Shown here one piece after another: positions 730 through 34,302 of a stretch of 35,961 nucleotides of DNA. Position 1 is the stretch's first letter. The number at the start of each line of letters is the position of its first letter. This DNA comes from Phocaeicola oris (GTDB lineage Bacteria; Bacteroidota; Bacteroidia; Bacteroidales; Bacteroidaceae): assembly GCF_021295095.1 (NCBI RefSeq), contig NZ_JAJLQX010000025.1, forward strand, positions 1 to 35,961, given 5' to 3'. The notes under the pieces are model-generated. The model worked only from the letters and a program-made list of their open reading frames with translations. It ran no database searches and was not told the origin of the DNA. The position numbers and the translations under genes were made by a program.

Positions 730-3700
730 ATGAAAAAAGCGTTTAATAAACTATTAATTCAGACAATGAGCATATTTTTGCTCTACATTCTGTTCTCTGT
801 AACAGCATTTGCCCAACAGAAAATAAATGTTAGAGGTACCGTTACAGATGCGGCAGGAGAACCGTTGATTGGTGTCAACGTTGCTGTAAAAGGAACTACA
901 ACCGGTATCATTACCGATGTAGACGGTAACTATGCACTTGAAGCCCCGAATAATTCTACATTGGTATTCTCGTATATTGGTTATAAAACCGTTGAAATTG
1001 TAGCAAATAGGGCAACTATTAATGTAACCATGAATGAAGATACCGAACAGATTGATGAGGTTGTAGTTGTAGGTTACGGTGTTCAGAAGAAGGTAACTGT
1101 AACCGGCGCTGTTGCCAGTGTAACCGGTGAGGATTTGAAAACTTCTCCTACTACTAACTTGTCAAACGGTATGTTAGGTCGTATGCCCGGTGTTATCGGA
1201 TTTCAACGTTCGGATGAGCCCGGTGGTGGCGCTACCACTATTCGTATCCGTGGTAATAACACATTGGGTAGCAAAGACCCGTTGATTGTTGTCGATGGTG
1301 TTCCCGATCGTTCAGGTGGTATGAACCGTATCAATCCTAACGATATTGAATCTATGTCAGTATTGAAGGATGCCGCTGCTTCTATTTATGGTTCTCGTGC
1401 AGCTAACGGTGTTATCTTGATCACCACTAAGAAAGGTAAGGAAGGAAAAGCTAACGTACAGTTCACCGGCAGCTACGGTTTTTCTAAGCCTACTTTGTTG
1501 CCTAAGATGTGTAATGCCTTCGAGTATGCTTCCATGATTAATGAAATTCAACCGGGAGCTTATTCTGAAGAAGCCCTTGCTCTTTTTCAGAACGGTAAAG
1601 ACCCTTGGGGACATCCTAATACTAACTGGTATAAAGAAGTTATTAAGGACTTCTCTCCGCTCTACCGTGGTGACTTGAGTATCAGTGGTGGTACTGATAA
1701 AGTGAAGTATTATGTAAACTTTGGTCTCAACGGTGAAGATGGTATCTACAAACATTCAGCTAACCGTTATGACCAATACGGAATTCGTTCTAATTTGGAT
1801 TTCAAGTTGAGTAAAGATGTCCAGTTGAGTTGGGGGTCTACAGCCCGTTATGAGTATACTCAGTATCCGGCTAAGAGCGCAAGTTCTATCTTCTCTGCTC
1901 TTCGTCGTAGTAAACCTACATTACCGGCTTACTGGCCGACAGGACAGGTTGGACCTGATATTGAGTATGGTGATAACCCTGCGGTAACTTCTACCGATGC
2001 GGCAGGATACAACCATCAGAAAAATTATTATATTCAGAACAACGTTACCTTGAATATCAATATTCCTTGGATAGAAGGTTTGAAATTCACCGGAACAGCT
2101 TCATACGATAAGCATTTCTATAATGAGAAGAACTGGCAGAAGCCTATCACTCTCTATTCATGGGATGGCGTTACCGAAAGCGCGGAAGGATTGACTCCGT
2201 ATACAGCATGGATCAGCGATCCTCGTTTGACTCGTACCGATTTAGATTACACCGATTGGATGGCCAATGCTGTTTTAAGTTATGACAAGACTATTGGCAA
2301 ACATACGTTTGGTATCATGGCCGGTATTGAAGGACAGAGCAAGGAACGCGATTATTTGCAAGCATACCGTCGTTATTTCCCATCCGATACATTGGATGAA
2401 ATCGACTTAGGTAGCGTAACCGGTTTGAACAACGGCGGTTATTCTTATAAGGAAACTCGTCGTAACTACTTCGGTCGTGTTAACTATAATTATATGGAGC
2501 GTTACTTGTTCGAGTTCGTTTGGCGTTATGATGGTTCATATCGTTTCCCGAAAGATAATCGTTATGGATTCTTCCCTGGTGTCATGGCTGCATGGCGTGT
2601 ATCTGAGGAGCCTTGGTTCAAGGAGAAAGTTCATTGGATGGATTATTTGAAGATCCGTGCTTCTATTTCTCAATCAGGTAACGACGTATTGACTGATGCC
2701 GATGGTAACATCGATCAGAGCATCCAGTATCTGAATACCTATGCTTTCCAGAGTTCGGGTATCATTTTCAATGGAGCTGAACAGCAGCGTTTGTATCCGT
2801 CTCGTACTCCTAACCCCAATATTACTTGGGAGCGTGGTACTACTTATGATATCGGCGCGGAAGTGCGTTTCTTCAATAACCGATTAAGCATAGAAGGCGA
2901 CTACTTTATGCATAAACGTAAGGATATGTTGATTACACGTAGTGCTTCATTACCGCAGATTGCAGGTTTTACTTTGCCTCGTGAGAATATAGGTAAGATG
3001 CAGAACTCCGGTTTTGATGCATTGATCAGCTGGCAGGATAAGGTTCAGGAAGTAGGTTACGACCTTAGTTTAAATGTATCGTATGCAAAGAACAAGGTTA
3101 CTTACTGGGATGAAACTCCGGGATTACCGGAATGGCAACAGGCTACCGGTCATCCGATACCAACCAGCGGTACTTATGCGGCATTGCGCGATAACGCAGG
3201 TTTATACTATCAGGCAGATGGCGTATTCAACACTCAGGCAGAATTGGATAGCTATCCACATTGGGATGAGGCTACTTTAGGTGACGTTAAATTCGTTGAC
3301 CTTAATAACGATGGTGTTATTGACTGGCATGATATGAAACGTTCAGACAAGAACCAGACTCCTACACTGGTTATGGGTTTCAACGTTGGCGCAAATTGGA
3401 AGAATTTTGATTTGATGATGTTGTTCCAGGCTGCTTTTGGCGCAGAAACTTATATCCAGACATGGTCAGGTACGGTAGGTAACTTCCTGAAAGAGTATTA
3501 CGATCAGCGTTGGACAGCAGAAAACTCTACTTCTGAGCATCCTCGTACATACGAGCGTGAGAATCAGTATTGGATTAATAATGCCAATACCATGTTCCTC
3601 CGTAACAATGACTACATGCGTTTGAAGAATATCGAAATTGGTTATACTCTTCCTAACGGCATAAAGGCTTTAGGTATTTCTAAACTGCGTATTTTTGCTA

Positions 3701-3819
3701 ACGGACAGAATATATTCACTATTACCGGTGTTCCCGGTGACCCTGAAAATACTGCCGCAAGTTTTGATTACTATCCACAGAGACAGTATTATACGCTTGG
3801 TGTAACTGCTAATTTCTAA
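730..3819 (+). CDS. SusC/RagA-family TonB-dependent outer-membrane transporter (copy 1)
   Basis: A 1029-residue TonB-dependent receptor that would import a bound nutrient across the outer membrane, powered by TonB. A signal peptide ends near AFA at residue 28. A carboxypeptidase-D-like regulatory domain follows at about 31-105 (GTVTDAAGEPLIGVNV, GTTTGIITDVDGNY). The SusC signature DEVVVVGYG is at 109-117, then the plug domain (RIRGNNTLGSKDPLIVVDGV) and a large beta barrel ending in a C-terminal Phe. The SusD partner starts 12 bases downstream. The substrate cannot be read from sequence. No sigma/anti-sigma or hybrid two-component regulator lies beside it in this window. The protein is clearly different from the second SusC at 27070, so the two pairs are not a recent duplication. 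Confidence 0.95.
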   Translation: MKKAFNKLLIQTMSIFLLYILFSVTAFAQQKINVRGTVTDAAGEPLIGVNVAVKGTTTGIITDVDGNYALEAPNNSTLVFSYIGYKTVEIVANRATINVTMNEDTEQIDEVVVVGYGVQKKVTVTGAVASVTGEDLKTSPTTNLSNGMLGRMPGVIGFQRSDEPGGGATTIRIRGNNTLGSKDPLIVVDGVPDRSGGMNRINPNDIESMSVLKDAAASIYGSRAANGVILITTKKGKEGKANVQFTGSYGFSKPTLLPKMCNAFEYASMINEIQPGAYSEEALALFQNGKDPWGHPNTNWYKEVIKDFSPLYRGDLSISGGTDKVKYYVNFGLNGEDGIYKHSANRYDQYGIRSNLDFKLSKDVQLSWGSTARYEYTQYPAKSASSIFSALRRSKPTLPAYWPTGQVGPDIEYGDNPAVTSTDAAGYNHQKNYYIQNNVTLNINIPWIEGLKFTGTASYDKHFYNEKNWQKPITLYSWDGVTESAEGLTPYTAWISDPRLTRTDLDYTDWMANAVLSYDKTIGKHTFGIMAGIEGQSKERDYLQAYRRYFPSDTLDEIDLGSVTGLNNGGYSYKETRRNYFGRVNYNYMERYLFEFVWRYDGSYRFPKDNRYGFFPGVMAAWRVSEEPWFKEKVHWMDYLKIRASISQSGNDVLTDADGNIDQSIQYLNTYAFQSSGIIFNGAEQQRLYPSRTPNPNITWERGTTYDIGAEVRFFNNRLSIEGDYFMHKRKDMLITRSASLPQIAGFTLPRENIGKMQNSGFDALISWQDKVQEVGYDLSLNVSYAKNKVTYWDETPGLPEWQQATGHPIPTSGTYAALRDNAGLYYQADGVFNTQAELDSYPHWDEATLGDVKFVDLNNDGVIDWHDMKRSDKNQTPTLVMGFNVGANWKNFDLMMLFQAAFGAETYIQTWSGTVGNFLKEYYDQRWTAENSTSEHPRTYERENQYWINNANTMFLRNNDYMRLKNIEIGYTLPNGIKALGISKLRIFANGQNIFTITGVPGDPENTAASFDYYPQRQYYTLGVTANF

Positions 3820-3831
3820 AATTATTAAGCT

Positions 3832-5745
3832 ATGAAGAATAAATATAAATATATTATATTGGCAGCCGGTGTAGTTGGTATGATGAGCTTGAACTCATGT
3901 TCATCCGATTTTATGGATTTGTCTCCGACAAACCAGTATACCAACGAACAGGTCTTCGGTGATGCCGGATTGACCCAGCTGTATATTAACAACTGTTATG
4001 ATTATGCTGTTCATGCAGCTAAGGAGCATACTACTACCGGTTTGACAGATGACGCGTACTTTACTCATAACTATGGTCAGATTGCTGTGAACGCAGCTAC
4101 TATATCGGGTGGTAATACACAGTGGATTACCAATGGTAACTGTCCGTTTAACTGGGCAAATGCTTATACGGGTTTGTATTATTGTAACTCTATTTTGGAG
4201 AATATCGCTAACGTTCCTCCAAAGTCCGGTTATAGTCTGACAACGATGGAAGGTGAAGTTCATTTCCTTCGTGCTTACATTTATACCAACTTGTTGCGAG
4301 GTTTCGGTGGTGTTCCTATTGTAGATAAAACATACGGACTGGCCGATTATGACGCATTACAGATTGAACGTAGCAATGTAGGCGATGTGCTAAAATTCAT
4401 CCTTGACGATTGTGAGAAAGCATATAACATGCTCCCTGATGAAGTTCCTACAGGACGTGCAAGCAAATGGGCTGCCAAAGCTTTGGAAGCCAGAGCTTGC
4501 TTGCATGTAGCAAGTCCGCTTTATGCCGATCGTTCTATTAATACGTTAGCTTGCAATCAGTATAATGGTGATCGCAATGCTTTGTATCAAAGAGCGTTAG
4601 AAGCAGCCAAGACTGTTATTAACTCAGGTAAATATCAGTTGTTGGATTGTCGTGCAGGCAGTGTAGAAGAAATTGCTGATTTGTATCACAAGATTGCCAT
4701 CACGAATAATAGTGAGACTATCTGGGCAAAGCAGTTCGACTTGACAAAGGTTACTCAGAATGTAGGTTTGCAGCATGGTCCTAACGGATACCATAATTGG
4801 TCTGGTACTACTCCTACGAATGATTTCGTTATGTCGTTTGAAATGGCAGACGGTTCGTTAGGTAAAGGTATGACTAAGATTGGTGATAGAATGGATTCTA
4901 ATCCATATCTGGGACGTGAACCACGTTTCTATGCCGACCTTGGCTTTGATGGCGCTGTTTGGGGACGTCAGCGTGCAGCCGATGGTTACGCGCTTGATCC
5001 TACTCCAAAGGGTAACTTGCAGACCGGTGTCTATGAGTTGTCGTCAGGAGGAAAGAATGTTGAAGTGGTTGCTTATCTTGATCACTCCAATCCTACTAAG
5101 GGAACTACATTGTGGTCGGGAACCGGTGTATTCGGTTGTGATACCCGTAAGGGACCTATCGAGGACTGGAACGGTTCATTCACTTCATATTATGAGAAAA
5201 AGTTAATCGATACCACTGTAGATGCTGCTAACAATAATCAGGTTTGTCCATATCCTTACTTCCGCTTATCAGAAATGTATCTGATTGCTGCTGAAGCATG
5301 TGTTGAAATGGGTAACTTAGACGAAGCTGTTACTTATATCGATCCGTTACGTGCACGTATCAACATGCCTGATACAAAAGCTACGTTGGCTGTTCGCGGT
5401 CAGAGTCAGAATCAGGAAGACATGCGCGACTTGGTACGCCGTGAACGTCGTTCAGAGTTGGCATACGAAGATTCTCGTTTCTATGATATTCGTCGTTGGA
5501 TGATTGGTGATGTAGCCGGCAACAAACCGGTGATGAGCATGTGCGTTTGGGCTACATTGAAGTCGGGGAAATCGGCTAAGGCTCCTTATGTACACGATGA
5601 ATCAACTTGGGATTATCACTATGTAGTTAGTGACGTAAGTTACCGTGAGAACCGTAAGTGGGAAAACAAGATGTATTTCGCTCCAATTACTCAGAGTGAG
5701 ATAAATCGTAATAAAGCTTTGGTTCAGAATCCTGGACAAGAGTAA
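3832..5745 (+). CDS. SusD/RagB-family nutrient-binding lipoprotein (copy 1)
   Basis: A 637-residue surface lipoprotein expected to form the lid of the adjacent SusC transporter. The N-terminal hydrophobic segment ends in a lipobox with Cys23 (LNSC). SusD-typical features follow: the early FMDLSPTNQYTNEQVF segment, the helical TPR-like core (EVHFLRAYIYTNLLRGFGGVPIV), and the C-terminal region with RRERRSELAYEDSRFYDIRRW and the final FAPITQSEINRN. Length is ordinary to slightly long for the family. It is co-transcribed with susC, and the pair is closed by a strong intrinsic terminator just downstream. The ligand is unknown. Confidence 0.95.
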   Translation: MKNKYKYIILAAGVVGMMSLNSCSSDFMDLSPTNQYTNEQVFGDAGLTQLYINNCYDYAVHAAKEHTTTGLTDDAYFTHNYGQIAVNAATISGGNTQWITNGNCPFNWANAYTGLYYCNSILENIANVPPKSGYSLTTMEGEVHFLRAYIYTNLLRGFGGVPIVDKTYGLADYDALQIERSNVGDVLKFILDDCEKAYNMLPDEVPTGRASKWAAKALEARACLHVASPLYADRSINTLACNQYNGDRNALYQRALEAAKTVINSGKYQLLDCRAGSVEEIADLYHKIAITNNSETIWAKQFDLTKVTQNVGLQHGPNGYHNWSGTTPTNDFVMSFEMADGSLGKGMTKIGDRMDSNPYLGREPRFYADLGFDGAVWGRQRAADGYALDPTPKGNLQTGVYELSSGGKNVEVVAYLDHSNPTKGTTLWSGTGVFGCDTRKGPIEDWNGSFTSYYEKKLIDTTVDAANNNQVCPYPYFRLSEMYLIAAEACVEMGNLDEAVTYIDPLRARINMPDTKATLAVRGQSQNQEDMRDLVRRERRSELAYEDSRFYDIRRWMIGDVAGNKPVMSMCVWATLKSGKSAKAPYVHDESTWDYHYVVSDVSYRENRKWENKMYFAPITQSEINRNKALVQNPGQE

Positions 5746-5763
5746 TCCTTTCTATCTTACAAG

Positions 5764-5795
5764 AGGGTTGTACAGTAATGTGCAACCCTTTTTTA
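5764..5795 (+). terminator. intrinsic terminator after SusCD pair 1
   Basis: A 10-bp stem (AGGGTTGTAC at 5764-5773 against GTGCAACCCT at 5780-5789, one G-T pair) with a 6-base loop runs into a T-tract. It separates the SusCD operon from the downstream membrane-protein/lipoprotein pair. Confidence 0.9.
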
Positions 5796-5978
5796 GTTTA
5801 AAACAATAGCTTAATCTGAATCTTTAAATGGACAGTAATTATTTTAAACCTATAATAATCAATGCATAAAACATTATACAGATTCTTTCCATCATAAAAA
5901 AGTAGGGAGAAAACAATTTTTCTTCATATATAATTAGTATATTAGCTCCGTATTTTGAGGCGTTTGTTTCATTTGAAT

Positions 5979-7763
5979 ATGAAGAAGATTGTATCCTATA
6001 TCCCTGTAACACTTGCAATAATTGCATTCTTTTTGATTTGGATATTCCTGCAAAAAAATCAGGAATTCCTTTTTTATTATCGTGAACAGCAACAGGTCTT
6101 TCTGTTTGATGTTGATTTTTTAGTTGACCGTTATGTTACTCTTGGAGGATTATCATTATTTGTTACACAATTTCTTACGCAATTTTTTACTGTCCATTAT
6201 CTTGGGGCCGCAATCACAGCTGCTCTCTGTGTATTGGCGGGATGGTTGTTTTGGCTTTCATTACGAAAACTGAACAGTTCTGTTTGGCTGTTTCCATTAT
6301 GTCTCATCCCTTTGATATTCGAAATTGATGGATTAAATGATTATTATTATAGTCTTCAAAGTGTTACGTCCTTTCTGTTTGTCATGCTGTTTTTCCGGAT
6401 CTATACAGCTGAGGTGTCGGAAATGAAGCCGGTGATAAGGGTGGTTACGGGGTGTACATTCTCTTTGCTATTATTCCTTTTTGCCGGTTCGGTAGCCTTA
6501 TTGTTCTCGGTGCTGGTGTTGTTGTTCGATTTATTTAATAGGAGTAAGGCGTGGTATTTTCAATTCCTGTCCGTCCTGACTGTTATAGCCTGCGGAATTA
6601 TTGCAGTGCATGCCGGAGTAATAGAGTTATACCGTTTTGTTTTTACAAACGATTTTAATTATGAGCCTATTTTGAAACCGGATGTTTCGACCGGCTATTC
6701 ATGGTATATGGCAGTCGCCTGTTTCATATTCTTTGTTATTACTCGGTATGTAAAGATTCAGAAACCTGTTATACAATTGGTTAGCGCAATAGTTTTGTTC
6801 CTTTTGGTTGGGTATGGTTACCATCATTTTGCTTCACGTAATCCGAAAGATAATATGTACGATATAGCAGTTTTGCAACATTATGTGGTAACGGAAGAAT
6901 GGGATAAATTGTTACAGTCGGGGAGAATTCGGAGTAATAATTATCTGTTGATGAATTATGCTACTTTAGCATTATCGCATAAAGGCCAGTTGCTGAATCG
7001 TATACTTGATTATCGGCCGCGTGATCCGTTTGTTCTCGCGGTTGGGGGAGATAAAAGTAATTTGGTGGCCGATTTGACTGTTTTTTTGAGCGATGTTTAT
7101 TATCAGATGGGGAATGTGGCATCTGCGCAGAATAAGGCATTCGATTCATCTGTCGGATTACGTTATGGGAATCCGTCAATACTGAAGATGTTGGTTAAAA
7201 CTAATTTGATTTATGGACAATTTCCTATAGCGGAGAAATATCTTCGTATGTTAAGCAAGACTTGGTTTTATAAGGGATGGGCAGAACGTATGCGTCACTT
7301 TCTGAATAATGACAAAGCTATTGAAGCCGATCCTGAACTTGGGATGAAACGGAAAGACTTGACGAAGAAAGATTCATTTACATTGTTAGACGGTCCTTTT
7401 GTCGATTTGGTGAATATTATTGAAGCTAATCCTCATGACAGAGCAGCAGTGGAATACGCGATTGCATATCTTCTTCTCGCTCGTGATAAGGATACAACAA
7501 ACCGTTTTGTAGAGGAATTTTATGGAACAGATGCTTTAAAAACTCTCCCACGGATTTTGCAGGAGGGAATGCTTGTTTTCAATGAAAATGATTTTGAATA
7601 TTGCAGACAATATGGGGTGACTGACGAGACGATAAAGAAATATGTGGATTTTAAAAATAAGTTTTTCTCGGCTCAGCGTGCCCGTCGTAATCCTGTTGCC
7701 GTTTTGAAATCGGAATACGGTCGTACCTATTGGTTCTATTTCTTATTTAATAATGCCAGATAA
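5979..7763 (+). CDS. polytopic membrane protein with helical-repeat C-terminal domain, DUF6057-like (copy 1)
   Basis: About 594 residues, function unknown. I chose the ATG at 5979 over an upstream TTG at 5955 because the start then aligns residue for residue with the paralogue at 32535: both reach the shared FYYREQQQ motif at residues 32-39. About nine or ten hydrophobic segments fill residues 8-285. The remaining ~300 residues are soluble and alpha-helical, reminiscent of TPR repeats (ALSHKGQLLNRILDY, YYQMGNVASAQNKAFDS, YGQFPIAEKYLRML) and include KAIEADPELGMKRKDL, shared with the paralogue. I assign it to the DUF6057 type from memory only. Its stop codon overlaps the start of the next gene by one base (TAATG), so the two products are probably made and act together. 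Likely an inner-membrane protein whose tail projects to one side. Confidence 0.8.
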   Translation: MKKIVSYIPVTLAIIAFFLIWIFLQKNQEFLFYYREQQQVFLFDVDFLVDRYVTLGGLSLFVTQFLTQFFTVHYLGAAITAALCVLAGWLFWLSLRKLNSSVWLFPLCLIPLIFEIDGLNDYYYSLQSVTSFLFVMLFFRIYTAEVSEMKPVIRVVTGCTFSLLLFLFAGSVALLFSVLVLLFDLFNRSKAWYFQFLSVLTVIACGIIAVHAGVIELYRFVFTNDFNYEPILKPDVSTGYSWYMAVACFIFFVITRYVKIQKPVIQLVSAIVLFLLVGYGYHHFASRNPKDNMYDIAVLQHYVVTEEWDKLLQSGRIRSNNYLLMNYATLALSHKGQLLNRILDYRPRDPFVLAVGGDKSNLVADLTVFLSDVYYQMGNVASAQNKAFDSSVGLRYGNPSILKMLVKTNLIYGQFPIAEKYLRMLSKTWFYKGWAERMRHFLNNDKAIEADPELGMKRKDLTKKDSFTLLDGPFVDLVNIIEANPHDRAAVEYAIAYLLLARDKDTTNRFVEEFYGTDALKTLPRILQEGMLVFNENDFEYCRQYGVTDETIKKYVDFKNKFFSAQRARRNPVAVLKSEYGRTYWFYFLFNNAR

Positions 7764-9238
7764 TGAGGAAGATTCTTTATATATGTAGTTTAATTTGTTT
7801 GACTTTGCTGAATGCCTGCTCAGGTGATGTTAAGGTGACAAAGAATATAGAAGAGGAACTGATAATTTTTCCTGATTATAAAGGCGTTACTATTCCTGTA
7901 AATGTAGCTCCTCTCGATTTCTATGTAGAAAATGTAGGAGATATGCCGACTGTACTCCAAATTGCAGGCGATGATGAGAAGATGATAGTGAAAGGTGATG
8001 ACGGTAATTTTGTCATTCCTCAAAGGAAATGGAAGAGGCTCTTGGAAAAGCAGCAAGGGAAAGATATTCAATTGACAGTCTGTAAGAAGGAAAATGGTGA
8101 ATGGTGTGCCTATAAACCGTTCTTTATGAATGTGGTATCGGATAAGATAGATAAATATATTGCCTACCGACTTATCCCTCCCGGTTACGGACTTTGGAAT
8201 AAAATGGGTATTTATGAACGTAGCTTAGAGACTTACGAGCAGATTCCGATTTATGAGAATAAGTTGACCGATTATAATTGTGTTAATTGCCACTCTTTCC
8301 CGATGCAGAGTCCGGATAAGATGCTGTTCCACATGCGATCAAAGCATGGTGGTACCGTTTATATTGATGGTAATAAAGTGGAGAAGTTGAATACTAAGAC
8401 CGATGGAACAATCTCTGCGTTGGTGTACCCATTCTGGCATCCGACGGAGAATTATATAGCGTTCTCAACGAATAAGACCGCTCAGTCTTTTTTCGCAAAC
8501 CATGTTAACAGAATTGAAGTGTTCGATTCTGCTTCCGATGTGGTAGTGTATAATGTTAAGACACATGAGGTAATCTCTTGTCCACAGTTGAAGAATGACA
8601 GTGTTTTTGAGACATTCCCTACATTCTCTCCGGATGGGAAAAGCTTGTATTTCTGTTCGGCAAAGGCAGTTTCCCCTATGCCGCAGAGGTATAAAGAAGT
8701 ACATTACGACCTTTGTCGTATAGATTTCGACGCTGTGAATGGAACTTTTGGCACGAAAGTAGATACTGTTTATAATGCATCGAAAGATTCGATGAGCGTA
8801 TCGTTTCCCAGAGTTTCTCCGGATGGAAAGTATTTAGTATTCACACGGCATCAGTATGGGAATTTTTCCATTTGGCATAAAGACGCGGACTTATACATCG
8901 TTAACTTGATGACAGGTGAAGCTGCTCCCATGACTGATATAAACAGTAATGATGTTGATAGTTACCATTCATGGAGTAGTAACAGTAAGTGGATGGTTTT
9001 TAGCAGTAGAAGAATTGACGGTTTATATACTCGTCCATTCTTTACTTATATTGACAAGGAAGGAAAAGCGCATAAGCCGTTTATGTTACCTCAAAAGAAT
9101 CCGAAGAAATTCTATCAGGATTTCGTTTATTCGTATAACATTCCTGAGTTCGTTAAAGATAAAGTCGTTCTCGACCGTTATCATATAGCGAAAGAAATGC
9201 GTAACTCTAAAGGAATAGATATTACCTATAAGAAATAA
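7763..9238 (+). CDS. TolB/PD40-like beta-propeller lipoprotein with CxxCH motif (copy 1)
   Basis: A 491-residue predicted lipoprotein. The signal peptide ends in a lipobox with Cys19 (LNAC). PD40/TolB-type propeller repeats are visible in the second half (FETFPTFSPDGKSLYF, SFPRVSPDGKYLVF, YHSWSSNSKWMVFSSRR). Between the N-terminal domain and the propeller sits Cys173-Val-Asn-Cys176-His177 in a conserved YNCVNCHSFPMQ context followed by several Met residues. CxxCH is the covalent haem c attachment motif, so this may be a c-type cytochrome-like protein. That is inference: a single motif could also bind metal. Translationally coupled to the upstream membrane protein. A clear paralogue lies at 34303. 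Function unknown; known TolB works at the cell envelope, but this is only a fold-level resemblance. Confidence 0.85.
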   Translation: MRKILYICSLICLTLLNACSGDVKVTKNIEEELIIFPDYKGVTIPVNVAPLDFYVENVGDMPTVLQIAGDDEKMIVKGDDGNFVIPQRKWKRLLEKQQGKDIQLTVCKKENGEWCAYKPFFMNVVSDKIDKYIAYRLIPPGYGLWNKMGIYERSLETYEQIPIYENKLTDYNCVNCHSFPMQSPDKMLFHMRSKHGGTVYIDGNKVEKLNTKTDGTISALVYPFWHPTENYIAFSTNKTAQSFFANHVNRIEVFDSASDVVVYNVKTHEVISCPQLKNDSVFETFPTFSPDGKSLYFCSAKAVSPMPQRYKEVHYDLCRIDFDAVNGTFGTKVDTVYNASKDSMSVSFPRVSPDGKYLVFTRHQYGNFSIWHKDADLYIVNLMTGEAAPMTDINSNDVDSYHSWSSNSKWMVFSSRRIDGLYTRPFFTYIDKEGKAHKPFMLPQKNPKKFYQDFVYSYNIPEFVKDKVVLDRYHIAKEMRNSKGIDITYKK

Positions 9239-24311: not shown

Positions 24312-26486
24312 ATGAAACGTTTAGTTTTCTTTCTGGGAGAGTTACTGTTTTCTTTAATGACAGCATTTGGGCAGAAAGCCCCTGTAGATTATGTGAATCC
24401 TTTTATTGGAACTACTCATTCCGGAAATACCAATCCCGGTGCACTTTGTCCGCAGGGAATGATGTCGGTAGCTCCGTTTAATGTAAAAGGTGATACTACG
24501 GATTATCAAATTTATGCGGCTCCATACGATTATTCCAAGAAATATCTGACAGGTTTTTCGCACGTTAATCTCAGCGGTGTAGATTGTCCTGATATGAGTT
24601 CTTTGTTGTTGATGGCTACTACAGGTAATATTGATGTAGATTATCATAGCTATGGATCAACTTATACAGATGAGGTGGCGACTCCGGGATATTATTCCAA
24701 TAGGTTGGAAAAGTATGGTGTGCGGTGTGAAATGACAGCCACCCCGCGTACCAGTATGGCTCGTTTTACTTTCCCGAAAGGAAAAAGTAATATTCTGATG
24801 AATTTAGGAGAGGCACTGACAACGGAAAGTGGGGCTACCGTTAAATTAGTGAACGATAGGGAAATTGAAGGATCTAAACTGCTTGGATCATTTTGTCGAC
24901 ATCCCGAAGCGACTTTTCCTATTTATTTTGTAATGCGAATAAATAAGGTACCCTCAGAGCACGGTTATTGGAAAAGAATGATGAGCACGGATAATAATTC
25001 CGGTAGTTATTATAAATTGTATCGGAAATATTCGAAGGAACTGAGCGGTGATGATATTGGAGCCTACTTTACTTTTAACACCGATACAGATGAAACCATT
25101 GAAGTAAGTATAGGTGTGTCGTTTGTTAGTACGGAAAATGCACGAATGAACTTGGAGAAAGAACAGCCGTTCGGAACAACTTTTGATAAGTTGTGCGCTG
25201 ACGCTCGTAAAAGTTGGAACGATAATTTAAGCCGTATTCTGGTAAAAGGAGGAACCGAAGATCAGAAGACCATATTTTACACAGCGCTTTATCATTTCCT
25301 TATTCACCCGAATATTCTGCAGGATGTAAGCGGACAATATCCGCAGATGGAAGGGGAGAAGATTCTGACTACCAATAGAAATCGTTATACCGTATTCTCG
25401 CTTTGGAATACGTATCGGAATGTTCATCCGTTAATGACTATCTTGTTTCCCGACCGTCAGCTTGATATGGTAAACTCCATGATTGATATGTATAGGGAAT
25501 ACGGCTGGTTGCCTAAATGGGAATTGTATGGTCGGGAAACTAATGCCATGAGTGGCGATCCGGCTACCATTGTTGTGGTGGATACTTATATGAAAGGATT
25601 GACAGATTTTGATGTCGATCGTGCTTATAGGGCAATGTTTAAATCGGCTACTATGGAAGGGAAGAAAAATATGATCCGCCCCGATATAGACGATTATCTC
25701 TCGAAAGGATATATCCCAATGAAAAGTCAATATGACCACTCTGTCTCGCGTGCGCTGGAATATTATCTGGCGGACAATGCACTGATTAGTCTGGCTAAAA
25801 AGTTGAAGAGGAAAGAAGATGTAAAACAACTTGGAAAACGTACTGAAGGCTATAAGTATTACTATCGGAAAGATTTTGGAATGTTGGCTCCGCTGAATGA
25901 GGACGGCAAGTTCTATGAACCTTTTGATTCGAAGCAGGAAGCTGCCTGGAATTATACTTTTTTTGTTCCATACGATATAAAAGGACTTGCCGGACTGATG
26001 GGACAGAACCGCTTTATTGCTGAATTGCAAAATGTATTTGACAAGGGATATTATGATCCTGCTAATGAACAGAATTTAGCTTATCCGTATTTCTTCAGTC
26101 GATTTTCGGGTGAGGGGTGGAGAACCCAGCAACTGATAAAGGAGCTTTTGAAGAAGCATTACACGAATAAGCCGGACGGATTACCCGGAAATGATGATTC
26201 CGGAGCGATGTCGGCATGGGCTGTTTTCAGCATGATGGGCTTTTATCCGGATTGTCCGGGCGAAGCAAAATATACCCTTACAACTCCTATTTTTGATGAG
26301 ATTACCATTCAACTCGATAATAATTATTGGAAGCGAGATAGGTTAGTTATTAAAAAGGAAGGGAATGGCGATTTCATAAAAGAGGTTTATTTAGGAAAAC
26401 ACAAGGTGAGCGGACTGCGTGTTGACCATCATGATTTGATAGACGCAGGAAAAATTACCTTTGTTACTTCTGATGCTAAAAAATGA
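24312..26486 (+). CDS. GH92-family exo-alpha-mannosidase-like glycosidase
   Basis: A 724-residue secreted glycosidase with a signal peptide ending near AFG/QKAP. Family features are the start VDYVNPFIGTTHSGNTNPGA, the middle DPATIVVVDTYMKG, and the catalytic-base region GNDDSGAMSAWAVFSMMGFY at 626-645 with acidic Asp628/Asp629. GH92 enzymes are calcium-dependent inverting mannosidases acting on alpha-linked mannose. At the segment usually written as E-G-N-A-W-Q-Y, which carries the general-acid Glu four residues before Trp, this protein has Gln542-Glu543-Ala-Ala-Trp546. Gln at that place is known in GH92 members that cleave mannose-1-phosphate linkages, so the substrate may be a phosphodiester-linked mannose; this rests on alignment by eye. 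It lies 583 bases upstream of SusCD pair 2, forming a small probable mannan/N-glycan utilisation locus. Confidence 0.9.
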   Translation: MKRLVFFLGELLFSLMTAFGQKAPVDYVNPFIGTTHSGNTNPGALCPQGMMSVAPFNVKGDTTDYQIYAAPYDYSKKYLTGFSHVNLSGVDCPDMSSLLLMATTGNIDVDYHSYGSTYTDEVATPGYYSNRLEKYGVRCEMTATPRTSMARFTFPKGKSNILMNLGEALTTESGATVKLVNDREIEGSKLLGSFCRHPEATFPIYFVMRINKVPSEHGYWKRMMSTDNNSGSYYKLYRKYSKELSGDDIGAYFTFNTDTDETIEVSIGVSFVSTENARMNLEKEQPFGTTFDKLCADARKSWNDNLSRILVKGGTEDQKTIFYTALYHFLIHPNILQDVSGQYPQMEGEKILTTNRNRYTVFSLWNTYRNVHPLMTILFPDRQLDMVNSMIDMYREYGWLPKWELYGRETNAMSGDPATIVVVDTYMKGLTDFDVDRAYRAMFKSATMEGKKNMIRPDIDDYLSKGYIPMKSQYDHSVSRALEYYLADNALISLAKKLKRKEDVKQLGKRTEGYKYYYRKDFGMLAPLNEDGKFYEPFDSKQEAAWNYTFFVPYDIKGLAGLMGQNRFIAELQNVFDKGYYDPANEQNLAYPYFFSRFSGEGWRTQQLIKELLKKHYTNKPDGLPGNDDSGAMSAWAVFSMMGFYPDCPGEAKYTLTTPIFDEITIQLDNNYWKRDRLVIKKEGNGDFIKEVYLGKHKVSGLRVDHHDLIDAGKITFVTSDAKK

Positions 26487-27069: not shown

Positions 27070-30000
27070 ATGGAAGCTTTTGTATTGAGAAGAACGCTTA
27101 TGGGAGCTATTTTATTCCTGGTAGGTACAACAATCGTATTGGCTACAGGTGTAGAAAACTCATCAAAAGTAAGCGAAGCAATTGTTCAACAGAGCGGGCG
27201 AACTGTTAGCGTGACAGTTCATGACAGTTCTGGTCCTGTTATTGGTGCCAACATTCTTGTAAAAGGCACTACTACCGGTTCTATTACAGATATGAATGGA
27301 AAAGCCACTATTGAAGGCGTACCTAATAATGCTGTATTGGTAATTTCTTATATCGGTTATATTACGCAAGAAGTTTCTTTGGCAAATAACCAACGATCAA
27401 TTGCAGTAACTCTGAAGGAGGATACGGAGGTCTTGGATGAAGTTGTTGTTGTAGGTTACGGTACTCAGGCTAAGAAAGACATTACCGGTTCTATAGCTGT
27501 TGTATCTCGTGATGCAATTCAGGAACAGCCTGTAGCAACATTTGCCGAAGCATTACAAGGTAAGGCTGCCGGTGTTTATGTAAATACTTCAGGTGGTCCT
27601 TCCGGTGAAACTACTATTCGTGTACGTGGTGTCGGATCCGTTAACGGTTCTGACCCATTGATCATCGTCGATGGTATTCAAGGTGTTGATATCAACTCAG
27701 TTAATCCTAATGATATTGATTCTTTCCAAGTGTTGAAAGATGCTGCAGCGACAGCTATTTATGGTGCTAAGGCTGCGAATGGTGTCATTATTATTACCAC
27801 CAAGCAAGGAAATAAAGAGGGGAAGGTTCGTGTATCATATAACGGTTATATCAGTGCGTCAAAGATGGCGAACGATGGTTATAACACCATGAATGCTTGG
27901 GATTATATGAAAGCTATTGAGCAATCTCAGCATAATCAGGTGGATTATCGCGGAGCCGATATTAACGCGGTAGGTCACCAACAGTTTGGTTCTATCAAAA
28001 ATGGAGAATTGACCATGCCTTATACCATTCATCCTGCGGGGCTGTCTAAAGAACAGGCTATGGAAATGTTTGGAAGCTACGATAATATGGTTGCCCAATA
28101 TCAGAACGATGGTACTCATTCTTATGCTCTTTCAGCATACTATTATATTAAAGATATTCTGGGTGGTACAGAGGAAGAAGCTCGTCGAGGTACGGATTGG
28201 TACGACATGGTAACGCAGACGGGCATCTCACAGAATCATGAGCTTTCTGTTCAAGGTGGTGGAACTAAGGGACAGTATGCTATTTCCCTTGGCTATACAA
28301 ACCGTGAAGGTACGATAAAGAATTCCGGTTTTGAGCGCTATAACTTACGTGTAAATACCACATTTAATCCAACTAAACATTTCACGATAGGTCAAAATAC
28401 TAATGCTTCCACCTTTAAGATTATCGGTGAACGCGGTCGTCAGGGTGATGATAGTGTATTCGGTCGTACATATACCATGAACGCATGGGTTCCCGCATAT
28501 AATGTAGGTGGTGACTTTGCCGGTTCTGTAGGTAATGGAGGCCGAGCAAGCTCTGCTTTGGAAGGTGTTATGAATACAAAAAATGACTGGAATCGTATGT
28601 TCCGTTTGCAGTCTGCCTTGTTCGCGGAAGTAAAAGACCCTTGGATAAAGGGTTTGACTTTACGTTCCCAATTCAGTATCAGAATAAGTGGCAATTGGGG
28701 TGTTGCCATGTACGAGAAGTCAGTTGCTTGGAATAAGGAAGGTCGTTCTCGTAACTACTTGGAGGAAAACGCAGGATGGGGCTTCGATTGGCAATGGACT
28801 AATACTGCAAGCTATAAGACTCATATCGCGGAAAATCATGATATCACATTATTGATAGGTACCGAGGCATTAAAGAATGGTATCGGTCGTAACATGACAG
28901 CTAATCGTTATGACTACATTTTCGAGAAAGATCCTAATACGTGGTCTCTTAATAATGGAGGTACTTCTACCGTAGGTAATTCCGGTTCCATCAGAAATAA
29001 GACTACCATGTTCGGTATTTTCGGCCGGGCAGATTATTCTTATAAAGGGAAGTATTTGGCTACGTTTACCATCCGTCGCGATGCTTCTTCTAAATTCGCC
29101 GCGAAAAACCGTTGGGGAACATTCCCATCATTGTCTGTAGGTTGGCGTATCTCCGATGAAAAGTTTTTGTCAAAAGCTCATGCCACTTGGTTAGATGACT
29201 TAAAACTTCGTGCCGGTTATGGTTCTACCGGAAACTCAAACATCGGTGCTTATAACTATGCTTTTCAGTATACGAACGATACGCGTTATCTTTATGGTAT
29301 ATCCGGAAGTAACTCAGGAGCTAACACGGGTTACGGAATTACCAACTTGGGAGATAATAATGCTAAGTGGGAAACGGTTAAAATGTTCAATATCGGTTAT
29401 GACTTTGCAGCATTCCATAATAAGTTGACCTCAAGTCTTGACTTCTATATTAAGAAAACTTCCGATATGTTGGTTCCTGCCAATTGGACAGCTCTTGCTG
29501 GCGCGGGTACTAAGCCTAACATTAATATTGGTGACTTGAAGAATACCGGTATTGACTTCTCTATTGGTTGGAGAGATAAGATTGGTCAGGTGGGGTATAA
29601 TATTAATTTTAATACCTCGTGGTACAAGAATAAAGTTACTAAGTTAGGTTCTTCAAATTTGTACACGTCAACCCGTATCTCACAGATGACTATCACTACC
29701 GTAGGTCAGCCTATTTCTATGTTCTATGGTTATGTTGATGATGGTATCTATAAGAGCGAAGAAGAAGTATTGAACTATAAGAATGACAATGGGCAGACCG
29801 TATTGCCTTACGGTGTCGCTGAAGCTAAAGAATTGAATCCTTCTGCATGGGTAGGTCATTATAAGTGGAAAGATACGAATAATGATGGTAAGGTTGACGC
29901 TAACGACCGTGCCATTATTGGTAACCCTCATCCTGATTTGACAGGAGGTATTAATCTCAGTTTAACGTGGAAAGATTGGGATATGGGTACGTATCTTTAC

Positions 30001-30450
30001 TATTCTTTAGGTAATGATCTTTATAAACACTTTGAGTATTATACATTGTGGGGAAATTTAGGTAATGTTTATTCATACGACCGTGTTGAGAAAGCGTGGA
30101 ATCCTTCTACCAATCCTAATGGAACATTGCCTTTGTGGATTTATGGTGATACTAACGCGGAGAATACAGCTTCTCACTCGAATTATATTCAGGATGGATC
30201 TTATCTCCGTATGCAGACTTTGACATTAGGTTACTCGTTGCCTAAGAGTTTCGTTCGTAACTTAGGTCTATCAAGAATTCGTTTGTATGCTCAGATGTCA
30301 AATGTATTCACTATTACCGGTTATGATGGTTTGGATCCTGAGGTTCGATCAGATAGCGATGGAGGTTCGAACGATATGATGAAAGGCGTTGATTACGGTT
30401 CTTATGGTATGCCACGTCAGTATTTGTTTGGTATTAATGTTGACTTCTGA
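27070..30450 (+). CDS. SusC/RagA-family TonB-dependent outer-membrane transporter (copy 2)
   Basis: A 1126-residue transporter. A hydrophobic signal segment (about 11-26) is followed by a carboxypeptidase-D-like domain at about 45-118 (HDSSGPVIGANILVKGTTTG), DEVVVVGYG at 123-131, a plug domain (IRVRGVGSVNGSDPLIIVDGI) and the barrel ending in GINVDF. It is about 100 residues longer than SusC copy 1 and differs in the plug and barrel, so it should bind another ligand. The upstream GH92 gene suggests an alpha-mannose-containing glycan (inference from context). Forms an operon with the SusD gene 73 bases downstream. Confidence 0.95.
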   Translation: MEAFVLRRTLMGAILFLVGTTIVLATGVENSSKVSEAIVQQSGRTVSVTVHDSSGPVIGANILVKGTTTGSITDMNGKATIEGVPNNAVLVISYIGYITQEVSLANNQRSIAVTLKEDTEVLDEVVVVGYGTQAKKDITGSIAVVSRDAIQEQPVATFAEALQGKAAGVYVNTSGGPSGETTIRVRGVGSVNGSDPLIIVDGIQGVDINSVNPNDIDSFQVLKDAAATAIYGAKAANGVIIITTKQGNKEGKVRVSYNGYISASKMANDGYNTMNAWDYMKAIEQSQHNQVDYRGADINAVGHQQFGSIKNGELTMPYTIHPAGLSKEQAMEMFGSYDNMVAQYQNDGTHSYALSAYYYIKDILGGTEEEARRGTDWYDMVTQTGISQNHELSVQGGGTKGQYAISLGYTNREGTIKNSGFERYNLRVNTTFNPTKHFTIGQNTNASTFKIIGERGRQGDDSVFGRTYTMNAWVPAYNVGGDFAGSVGNGGRASSALEGVMNTKNDWNRMFRLQSALFAEVKDPWIKGLTLRSQFSIRISGNWGVAMYEKSVAWNKEGRSRNYLEENAGWGFDWQWTNTASYKTHIAENHDITLLIGTEALKNGIGRNMTANRYDYIFEKDPNTWSLNNGGTSTVGNSGSIRNKTTMFGIFGRADYSYKGKYLATFTIRRDASSKFAAKNRWGTFPSLSVGWRISDEKFLSKAHATWLDDLKLRAGYGSTGNSNIGAYNYAFQYTNDTRYLYGISGSNSGANTGYGITNLGDNNAKWETVKMFNIGYDFAAFHNKLTSSLDFYIKKTSDMLVPANWTALAGAGTKPNINIGDLKNTGIDFSIGWRDKIGQVGYNINFNTSWYKNKVTKLGSSNLYTSTRISQMTITTVGQPISMFYGYVDDGIYKSEEEVLNYKNDNGQTVLPYGVAEAKELNPSAWVGHYKWKDTNNDGKVDANDRAIIGNPHPDLTGGINLSLTWKDWDMGTYLYYSLGNDLYKHFEYYTLWGNLGNVYSYDRVEKAWNPSTNPNGTLPLWIYGDTNAENTASHSNYIQDGSYLRMQTLTLGYSLPKSFVRNLGLSRIRLYAQMSNVFTITGYDGLDPEVRSDSDGGSNDMMKGVDYGSYGMPRQYLFGINVDF

Positions 30451-30523
30451 TATCATGAAGGATAAAGAGAAATTTAATCTCTGTCTTCAATAAAAGGAAT
30501 AATAACTTAAATATAAGAATAAT

Positions 30524-32383
30524 ATGAAAAAAACAATATTCTATTCAATAATGGCTCTGGCAATTTTCACTACAACAAGTTGTGGTGACGATTTCCTACA
30601 AATTGAACCGGTAGGTGCTGTGGGTGAAACTACATTGATGACTGCTGACGGTGTTGATTATGTACTGACAGGTGCTTATTCTACTCTCAACAATATGATA
30701 CAAACCCATTGGATGGGCGCGGCTTCGCTTAGTAATTATGTTTTTGGTGATGTTGCCGGTGCCGATGCCAATAAGGGTTCACAATCTTCCGACCAGTCTG
30801 ATTTTACTCAGATAGAGACGTATTCTTTTACTTCTGAGAACTCATATATCAGCGGTAAATGGGGTGCTGTTTACGAGTCTGTAAAGCGTTGCAATAATGT
30901 GTTGGACATGGTTTCAAAAGCAGGTGATGGAGTTCTTAAGAACGCAGATCAGATTGCTGCGCAAGCCAAGTTCATTAAAGGTGTTTGGATGTTTGAGGGC
31001 ATCCGTATGTTCGGAGCCGCTATTCCTTATGTTTCTTTAGAAGATTATCAGGCAAATACAGATCCTCAAGTATCTAATGTAGATGAGGGAAAGAATTATA
31101 TTTATATTTGGGATAAGGTGGCCCAAGATCTTAAGGATGCCGCTGCCGGTCTGCCTGCTACTTGGGGTGCCGGCAATTATGGTCGTGCTACTTCATGGAT
31201 GGCTAAGGCTGTTCTTGCTAAGTTATATTTGTATTGGTCTTCTCCTTATAACGGCACCAATGCGACTGCTGATCATTGGGCAGATGCTAAAGCATTGTTG
31301 AAGGATATTATCGATAATGGTGTTGACGCTAAGGGGCAGAAGTATAAACTGGCAGATAACTACGGTGAATTGTTTGATGCGGAGACTGCCGACTGGACAG
31401 GTGAATCCGTATTCGACGTTCAGCTGACAATTAACGGTACAGAAGTCGATACTAATACTATTAGCTACGCCTATGCCATTGGTCAACCCGGGGCTTCCGG
31501 TCTTGGAGGTTGGGGATTCTATCAGCCTACATTTGAGTTTGTGAATAGCTTTATTACGGATGAAAACGGCTTGCCTGATCCTAATTACACTAAAAAGGAA
31601 CGTTTGACTATCATGGGTGATATAAATCCTGTATCAGATTTGTCTACTCCTACCGACCCTCGTTTGGATTATGCTGCCGGTCGGTTTGGTGTTCCTTTTT
31701 ATGATTATGGTGTTCCGGTAGGTCTTAGCGGTTGGATTCGCGATTATACGAATGGTGGTTTGTATATGAATAAAAAGAATTTACCTAAGATAGCCGACCG
31801 TGGATCTACATCTGTGAGCACAACTGTGGCATCATCTGCAAAGAACTATCACGTTATCCGTTTTGCGGATATCATGTTAATGTATGCTGAGTGTTGCATC
31901 CACGAGGGTGATTTAGAGACCGCCAGAGAAATGATTAATACCGTACGTGCACGTGCAGCTAATAGTAGTTTGATAGCTAATGATTTTGTCGCTACGTATG
32001 CTAAGTCCGGTGTAGATGTACCTACTGATTATACCATGGACGATAAGGCTGACGGAAAGATCATTAAAGGTACTGTGGCCAATTATCGTATAGGTTTGTA
32101 CAAGACTCCGTTTGCCAATGCCGCTGAAGCTACTACAGCTCTTCAGCGTGAAATGCGTGCGGAGTTTGGTATGGAAGGACATCGTTGGTTCGATCTTGCT
32201 CGTTGGGGTATAGTTGCTGATGTATTAAATGCATATCGCGGATTTGAAGGAAAGTTCTTTCCGGGTAAATTCTCGGCTGCTTATAATGCAAACTGGGTAA
32301 CATTCCCTATTCCTTTGAATGAGATTCAGACATCGGAAGGTCGTTTTGTTCAAAATGTTAATTGGGGAGGTGAGGGAAAATAA
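30524..32383 (+). CDS. SusD/RagB-family nutrient-binding lipoprotein (copy 2)
   Basis: A 619-residue lipoprotein with a lipobox ending in Cys20 (TTSC) followed by GDDFLQIEPVGAV. SusD-type features include IAAQAKFIKGVWMFEGIRMFG, GRATSWMAKAVLAKLYLYWSSPY, the YHVIRFADIMLMYAECCIHEGDLE region and the C-terminal LQREMRAEFGMEGHRWFDLARWG and PIPLNEIQTSEG. Pairs with the SusC gene immediately upstream. A strong terminator follows the stop, as in the first module. Confidence 0.95.
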   Translation: MKKTIFYSIMALAIFTTTSCGDDFLQIEPVGAVGETTLMTADGVDYVLTGAYSTLNNMIQTHWMGAASLSNYVFGDVAGADANKGSQSSDQSDFTQIETYSFTSENSYISGKWGAVYESVKRCNNVLDMVSKAGDGVLKNADQIAAQAKFIKGVWMFEGIRMFGAAIPYVSLEDYQANTDPQVSNVDEGKNYIYIWDKVAQDLKDAAAGLPATWGAGNYGRATSWMAKAVLAKLYLYWSSPYNGTNATADHWADAKALLKDIIDNGVDAKGQKYKLADNYGELFDAETADWTGESVFDVQLTINGTEVDTNTISYAYAIGQPGASGLGGWGFYQPTFEFVNSFITDENGLPDPNYTKKERLTIMGDINPVSDLSTPTDPRLDYAAGRFGVPFYDYGVPVGLSGWIRDYTNGGLYMNKKNLPKIADRGSTSVSTTVASSAKNYHVIRFADIMLMYAECCIHEGDLETAREMINTVRARAANSSLIANDFVATYAKSGVDVPTDYTMDDKADGKIIKGTVANYRIGLYKTPFANAAEATTALQREMRAEFGMEGHRWFDLARWGIVADVLNAYRGFEGKFFPGKFSAAYNANWVTFPIPLNEIQTSEGRFVQNVNWGGEGK

Positions 32384-32412
32384 TAGTAACGTATAATGTT
32401 ACTTCTAACAAG

Positions 32413-32446
32413 AGGGTGTGTCAAAATTGACACACTTTCTTTTTTT
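32413..32446 (+). terminator. intrinsic terminator after SusCD pair 2
   Basis: GTGTGTCA pairs with TGACACAC around a 4-base loop, extended by G-T pairs to 11 bp (32413-32423 with 32428-32438), and runs into a long T-tract. Equivalent in position to the terminator at 5764. Confidence 0.9.
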
Positions 32447-32500
32447 AAAGAATAAATAGATTATGTAAAAAACTTTATTCACACATTATCTACATTTAAG

Positions 32501-32508
32501 TATATTTG
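32501..32508 (+). promoter_or_regulatory. -7 box for membrane protein/lipoprotein pair 2
   Basis: TATATTTG, a perfect TAnnTTTG, lies 26 bases before the ATG at 32535 and downstream of the SusD terminator, suggesting a separate transcription start for the pair. Confidence 0.55.
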
Positions 32509-32534
32509 TGGACTAAGTAAAAGAAAAATATCAG

Positions 32535-34298: not shown

Positions 34299-34302
34299 TA
34301 AA

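Follow-up and report, generated by a model that had tools for sequence, protein, structure and literature searches.

The window analysed here is the entire contig C17 of Phocaeicola oris, 35,961 bases from a genome of 2.98 Mb in 50 contigs. It contains two copies of a block of four genes, all on the + strand (730–9238 and 27070–35796), in which the outer-membrane proteins SusC and SusD (together SusCD) are followed by a DUF6057 membrane protein and a lipoprotein with a propeller fold. The last two genes form the pair with which this work is concerned. The features of the window that bear on it are as follows.

730..3819, + strand: SusC/RagA TonB-dependent outer-membrane protein, copy 1 (TIGR04056, 925.6 bits; Plug, CarbopepD_reg_2)
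3832..5745, + strand: SusD-family lipoprotein, copy 1 (PF07980, PF14322)
5761..5792, + strand: terminator-like hairpin between SusD and DUF6057, copy 1 (14 pairs, T-rich tail)
5979..7763, + strand: DUF6057, copy 1 (PF19529, 479.6 bits; membrane domain and C-terminal TPR-type domain)
6084..6086, + strand: codon of Glu36 (YYREQQQ) in the predicted first loop after helix 1 of DUF6057, copy 1 (Glu in 102 of 112 rows)
7763..9238, + strand: TolB-like, predicted six-bladed propeller lipoprotein with CxNCH, copy 1 (PD40)
8279..8293, + strand: CVNCH codons (Cys173–His177), predicted innermost strand of blade 1, copy 1 (invariant C173, N175, C176 and H177)
24312..26486, + strand: GH92 glycoside hydrolase upstream of copy 2, a sugar-locus context (PF07971, 478 bits)
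27070..30450, + strand: SusC/RagA, copy 2 (TIGR04056, 844.0 bits)
30524..32383, + strand: SusD-family lipoprotein, copy 2 (PF07980, PF14322)
32410..32441, + strand: terminator-like hairpin between SusD and DUF6057, copy 2 (14 pairs, T tail)
32501..32508, + strand: TATATTTG, which fits the −7 consensus TAnnTTTG, copy 2 (26 bases ahead of the DUF6057 ATG)
32535..34298, + strand: DUF6057, copy 2 (PF19529, 443.6 bits)
34303..35796, + strand: TolB-like propeller lipoprotein with CxNCH, copy 2 (PD40; 54% identity to copy 1)
34375–34389, + strand: lipid Cys and NKDD of the copy 2 lipoprotein, a tail resembling an export signal
34831..34845, + strand: CVNCH codons, copy 2 (from the translation and the alignment with copy 1)

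Both SusC proteins score far above the TIGR04056 cut-off of 368 bits, and both DUF6057 proteins, which cover profile positions 5–569 and 7–566 of 569, far above the PF19529 cut-off of 29.8 bits. The DUF6057 open reading frame (ORF) of copy 1 spans 5955–7763, with the ATG at 5979 a likelier start than the TTG at 5955. DUF6057 and lipoprotein genes are tightly coupled: in copy 1 the stop of the former overlaps the start of the latter by one base, and in copy 2 four bases lie between them. Upstream of the pair, both terminator-like hairpins begin with AAGAGGGT and have 14-pair stems, and shuffled sequence yielded on average only 0.2 (copy 1) and 0.1 (copy 2) such sites. ORFs, profiles and the hairpin search thus confirm the preliminary description of a four-gene module that occurs twice, each time with a terminator-like hairpin after SusD. 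The consensus TAnnTTTG is that of the Bacteroides −7 promoter element; it is common in the window (47 matches against 38.8 expected), so that its occurrence ahead of copy 2 points only weakly to a separate promoter of DUF6057. Given the hairpin 3′ of SusD in both copies and the −7-like sequence in the second, the pair may be transcribed separately from SusCD.

Sequence comparisons between the two copies gave 30% identity for SusC, 24% over 363 columns for SusD (a second piece 23% over 141), 38% for DUF6057 and 54% for the lipoprotein. The lipoprotein clearly shows the better conservation that had been claimed for the accessory pair, DUF6057 only to a modest degree; the three long motifs said to be kept by the pair are indeed identical in both copies.

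The two proteins are very probably an obligate cognate pair. Among 119 Bacteroidales genomes (the order sample; cut-offs E 1e-30 for the lipoprotein and E 1e-5 for DUF6057), 14 contain the lipoprotein and the same 14 contain DUF6057. Copy numbers are equal in all 14, at 36 lipoproteins to 36 DUF6057 proteins when split matches are merged and two matches are set aside, a short form on contig C16 of P. oris and a partial match in a 281-residue frame. A same-strand DUF6057 gene adjoins 32 of the 36 lipoprotein genes; in three of the 14 genomes (G026, G049 and G098) one lipoprotein and one DUF6057 each lie alone on separate contigs, and the counts remain equal. In a class sample of 396 genomes, where few candidates per genome were scored (four for the lipoprotein, three each for DUF6057 and ResB) and absences and copy numbers are accordingly less sure, the lipoprotein was found in ten genomes, all from Bacteroidales, every one with a strong DUF6057 match; five more genomes had weak or partial DUF6057 matches alone, one of them under the cut-off. 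We also compared 80 further loci from named contigs, those most similar to copy 1 among 173, which overlap with the order sample in two identical lipoproteins. Here DUF6057 is adjacent to 91 of 93 lipoprotein ORFs, upstream in 88 and downstream in three; the other two are an ORF at a contig end and a doubtful one of 1069 residues (L038_8), probably no true member, which was kept in the SusCD-operon and tree counts below. Finally, distances within the two protein families correlate at 0.92 over 103 pairs, a value to which shared ancestry contributes. Shared bearer genomes, equal copy number, adjacency and correlated distances bear out the idea of a real, separable and co-inherited unit, and the two genes occur together in every genome of both samples that bears the lipoprotein.

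Some loci depart from the simple arrangement. Arrays of at least two lipoprotein/DUF6057 units were seen in loci with xylanase-type genes (L065, L066 and L043; GH10 and GH5 scanned in L066). Apparently broken copies were also observed (L108, 6797–8289, and L123, 8099–9682): a DUF6057 gene spread over two overlapping ORFs, and a solitary lipoprotein gene divided between two.

The P. oris genome itself encodes five of the propeller lipoproteins, two on C17 and one each on C11, C47 and C44, with a DUF6057 gene beside each. Four of the five pairs lie directly behind SusC–SusD on the same strand; the pair on C47 has no SusCD directly upstream, and that on C44 has the reversed order, lipoprotein then DUF6057. 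Behind the C44 block we observed a gene for a 1103-residue DUF5107/TPR protein (L101, 4391–7702). The short DUF6057-like ORF on C16 (L102, 8303–9463; 386 residues, 93 bits) has no lipoprotein on its contig, and partial DUF6057 matches in frames of 323–405 residues were also found in G247, G293, G425, G453, G467 and G481. A partner-free DUF6057 subfamily may thus exist.

Analysis of the genomic neighbourhood showed that the link to SusCD is much looser. SusCD genes share the operon with 11 of the 38 lipoprotein ORFs (36 genes) of the order sample, that is, with four of five in P. oris against 7 of 33 in the other 13 bearer genomes, and with 16 of 93 in the 80 loci, where a contig end cuts off the upstream side in 10 of the 93. 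The regular presence in a SusCD operon that would mark a SusCD accessory was thus not found. In the order sample, SusD lies immediately upstream of the pair more often than of other genes in those loci (7 of 39 against 6 of 265, p 0.0003), and likewise in the 80 loci (9 of 84 against 16 of 574, p 0.002); with P. oris left out of the order sample, the enrichment is not significant (3 of 34 against 6 of 230, p 0.095). A FastTree phylogeny of 125 lipoproteins, which has several long branches, shows 20 changes between presence and absence of SusCD (26 and 89 lipoproteins, with 10 of unknown state), a count made without a shuffled control. These changes suggest that the association comes and goes. 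The pair is inherited independently of SusCD and lies behind SusCD or beside glycoside-hydrolase genes in many loci. The expectation that it would sit mainly with SusCD did not hold, since it occurs mostly away from these genes. Its description as a reusable component for different SusCD importers survives in part: in P. oris it stands behind four different SusCD pairs, but the data do not support SusCD as its main partner.

Carbohydrate-active genes are prominent among the selected neighbours that were scanned, which include GH2, GH36, GH43, GH116, GH16, arabinofuranosidase, GH88 and DUF2264 as well as GH28, GH31, GH3, GH10, GH5, an acetylesterase/cellulase-domain fusion and a rhamnosidase-like protein. 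A hybrid two-component system adjoins a lone DUF6057. In 14 of the 80 loci, the named ones largely from Parabacteroides and relatives, the pair lies directly behind a gene from an ABC-ATPase cluster, of which one member was scanned; an amino-acid kinase gene often comes before that gene. Unrelated neighbours comprise a gliding protein, a dicarboxylate symporter, a carbon-starvation protein and ribosomal protein L25. Two further ORFs recur. One, beside the pair, encodes a protein of some 375 residues that ends in a RidA-type (Ribonuc_L-PSP) domain (L043, 11467–12585; L066, 11460–12578; L119, 5556–6689), assigned by Pfam in L066 and L119 and by BLAST cluster in L043, L032 and L034. The other, of about 150 residues, lies between SusD and DUF6057 in several loci (L071, 7870–8331, and relatives, a cluster of six ORFs) and had no Pfam match in the one member scanned. 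Elsewhere in the window, positions 11347–13929 encode an 860-residue fusion of a family 2 glycosyltransferase with DUF4922/Ap4A-phosphorylase-like domains, adjoining a SpoIID-like gene.

The lipoprotein is modelled as a TolB-type six-bladed propeller, and CxNCH is present in all 94 lipoproteins examined. According to the secondary structure read from the model, the motif forms strand 173–178, the innermost of blade 1, close to other invariant residues; many of these, including several His, Arg, Asp and Tyr, would cluster on the innermost propeller strands. A helical cytochrome-c domain around the CxxCH motif was not seen in the model, which places the motif in a beta-strand within the propeller. 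A search of solved structures by sequence returned TolB-like and other propellers and a glutathione transferase, with weak E-values. A cofactor site in the propeller funnel appears rather probable; the narrower proposal that the cofactor is a c-type heme falls somewhat short of an even chance. Heme attachment machinery is available, with ResB in 21 of 21 bearers of the two samples and three Cytochrom_C_asm matches in P. oris. A precedent for heme in a propeller was sought in hydrazine synthase, whose fold matches, and was rejected: the available part of the account of its alpha subunit assigns the hemes to the middle domain and the C-terminal one, with none in the propeller (PMC12758564). An argument from glycosylation was likewise dropped. 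The O-glycosylation sequon D[ST][AILVMT] is in excess in the lipoprotein (2.34 against 1.40 in shuffles, 127 rows), and 83 of 93 lipoproteins have it at residue 334, but it is depleted in SusC (0.30 against 3.47) and SusD (0.84 against 1.74) and at expectation in other proteins (1.36 against 1.35, 577 rows).

The preliminary description left open whether the lipoprotein belongs to the periplasm or the cell surface. In Capnocytophaga, according to the portion of the source consulted, the minimal surface-export signal consists of a positive or polar residue followed by two acidic ones, at best C-X-K-(D/E)2, and SDDDD was proposed as the export signal for B. fragilis (PMC5080379). With the lipid Cys located by pattern, and a few misplaced, SusD proteins have a mean of 1.77 acidic residues at +2 to +6 (n = 47), against 0.58 for the lipoproteins of the same loci (n = 86; p 9e-13). 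When the lipid Cys was aligned, two acidic residues were found in 7 of 93 lipoproteins and none or one in 86. Because acidic residues are this scarce, most members probably face the periplasm. The CNKDD tail of copy 2 is the only CxK(D/E)2 among the 93 and fits surface export, so that this protein may be exposed on the surface; copy 1 has CSGDV, and two lipoproteins of one genome may thus sit on different sides of the outer membrane.

For DUF6057, the AlphaFold2 model (predicted local distance difference test, pLDDT, 95) has helices to about residue 285 and then a C-terminal TPR-type domain. The earlier term "polytopic membrane protein" therefore fits the membrane domain and misses the C-terminal half. 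Structural matches of the model were to TPR proteins, over residues 289–450, and to ArnT; the predicted architecture, membrane helices and then a TPR domain, is that of proteins of the TMTC/TMEM260 type. Profile comparison with hhalign gave 19.9–44.2% for DUF6057 against PMT_2, depending on the alignments, at best level with the 41.8% obtained for PMT_2/TMEM260-like, with controls at 0.3–13.3%; other polytopic families of the loci provided a single control cluster of four (0.5%), and reversed alignments and ResB were used instead. On these grounds the chances that the membrane domain has a GT-C glycosyltransferase fold seem evenly balanced, and that DUF6057 is an active transferase is less likely than the fold itself. 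In the portion of PMC7801869 consulted, the acidic motif of loop 1 has Asp at its first position, which is absent in DUF6057: position 35 is R, I or Q, and the neighbouring Glu36 is the residue that is kept. A relation to TMEM260-like proteins (PF11028) did not emerge, with hhalign at 1.0% and PF11028 absent among the 25 of 56 families listed for 66 members. A Pfam scan of these 66 members at E up to 10 returned, besides DUF6057, weak and scattered families (Wzy_C in 3 of 66, best 0.0048), and a sequence search of solved structures gave only cannabinoid-receptor matches (0.03–0.04). We also considered DUF6057 as the general O-glycosylation transferase of the phylum and rejected this, since a protein present in merely 14 of 119 genomes of the order is too rare.

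Taken together, these data suggest a model in which the lipoprotein would have its anchor in the outer membrane, probably on the periplasmic face in most members. Its six-bladed propeller would bind a covalent c-type heme or a metal at the central funnel through CxNCH and the surrounding invariant residues, and would act there on the glycan fragments that the neighbouring sugar-utilisation genes deal with. DUF6057 would be the cognate inner-membrane partner of the lipoprotein: its GT-C-like domain would carry the acidic residue of the first loop, and its TPR domain might recognise the propeller, by analogy with the lumenal TPR of TMTC/TMEM260, which is thought to recognise the acceptor domain. 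The task of DUF6057 would be to glycosylate the lipoprotein or its product, or to service either in some other way. This mechanism of a funnel-cofactor enzyme with a cognate GT-C/TPR partner in glycan loci is the best reading, though less likely than not as a whole. The more specific combination of a TolB-type propeller holding c-heme or another metal in its funnel without a cytochrome domain, with its own GT-C/TPR enzyme per copy and acting on envelope glycans, is unlikely.

Of the other explanations, a metal-dependent lyase or hydrolase similar to oligogalacturonate lyase, in which CxNCH and His would bind a divalent metal rather than heme and DUF6057 would have a separate role, is the least unlikely, though still doubtful. 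The lipoprotein model matches oligogalacturonate lyase 3pe7 in Foldseek (E 4.6e-8, rank 9), invariant His, Arg, Asp and Tyr are at hand, and a pectin-type GH28 gene lies beside several copies (one representative scanned). However, TolB and many other propellers match equally well or better, a Pfam scan of both window lipoproteins (E up to 0.01) reported PD40 alone and no pectate-lyase family, and the obligate partner is left unexplained. The reading suggested by the window, a dedicated accessory of SusCD importers that serves as an uptake, sensing or redox device from the inner membrane to the periplasm or surface, is improbable. It draws on the four P. oris pairs directly behind SusCD, the upstream SusD in the 80 loci, the scattering of SusCD contexts over the tree (26 among 115 labelled rows, with the same uncontrolled count of changes) and the export-like tail of copy 2. 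Against this, SusCD is missing from the operon of most copies elsewhere, a terminator-like hairpin separates SusCD from the pair in both window copies, and lipoprotein distances follow SusC less closely than the DUF6057 partner (0.78 against 0.94 over 12 cases, the basis also of the SusD comparison; related sequences correlate anyway).

A non-catalytic scaffold, with the TolB-like propeller and its TPR partner joining envelope parts and CxNCH as a structural metal site, is quite improbable: invariant residues cluster in the model on the innermost propeller strands, the usual place of an active site, and patchy occurrence and links to sugar genes ill suit a core scaffold. Strict one-to-one pairing, the predicted TPR domain and the CxNCH of every lipoprotein checked would also agree with DUF6057 as a dedicated cytochrome-c maturation factor, a heme lyase or apocytochrome chaperone for its lipoprotein, along the lines of the TPR-bearing maturation factors CcmI and NrfG. 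This is very improbable, as no column of 87 DUF6057 rows has His as commonest letter in at least 85%, the ResB profile matches at just 6.3% (13.3% with both reversed), and the general ResB system is present in the bearers anyway.

A pair that recurs in several polysaccharide contexts at one-to-one copy number lends itself to direct tests of partner specificity. If the propeller does hold a heme or metal, an oxidoreductase or lyase step would be added to envelope glycan handling; if DUF6057 is a glycosyltransferase, the system would use one enzyme per acceptor. Among open-licence papers we found no description of DUF6057 by name or of such a propeller/membrane-protein pair, and the O-glycosylation transferase of the phylum is reported as undiscovered in the available part of PMC12871550. 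Should the model hold, the pair would be a module not described so far that sugar-utilisation loci freely re-use, with DUF6057 as a bacterial TMTC counterpart that has a single dedicated acceptor.

Several known systems can be compared with the pair. SusCD polysaccharide utilisation loci are frequent neighbours in P. oris, and elsewhere the pair is mostly found without SusCD. TolB of the Tol-Pal system has a six-bladed fold like that modelled for the lipoprotein; the two window proteins differ in being lipoproteins paired with DUF6057 and in their scores of 45.3 and 27.7 bits against the cut-off of 343.15 for the TolB equivalog TIGR02800. TolB is not known to carry CxNCH. In the hydrazine synthase alpha subunit, as far as the cited portion describes it, the hemes lie outside the propeller, whereas CxNCH is predicted inside that of the lipoprotein. 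Both window membrane proteins are full-length members of PF19529, to which Pfam assigns no function. ArnT and other PMT_2 GT-C glycosyltransferases share a catalytic Asp that is not conserved in DUF6057, which in turn has the TPR domain. The O-mannosyltransferases TMTC1–4 and TMEM260 (GT105/GT117), in the portions of the sources consulted, combine a membrane module, an acidic first-loop residue and a C-terminal TPR region (PMC11292533, PMC7801869), and the DUF6057 model resembles them in all three respects; it differs in the missing motif Asp, in the low profile match to PF11028 and in that each DUF6057 copy has one partner gene rather than a class of acceptors.

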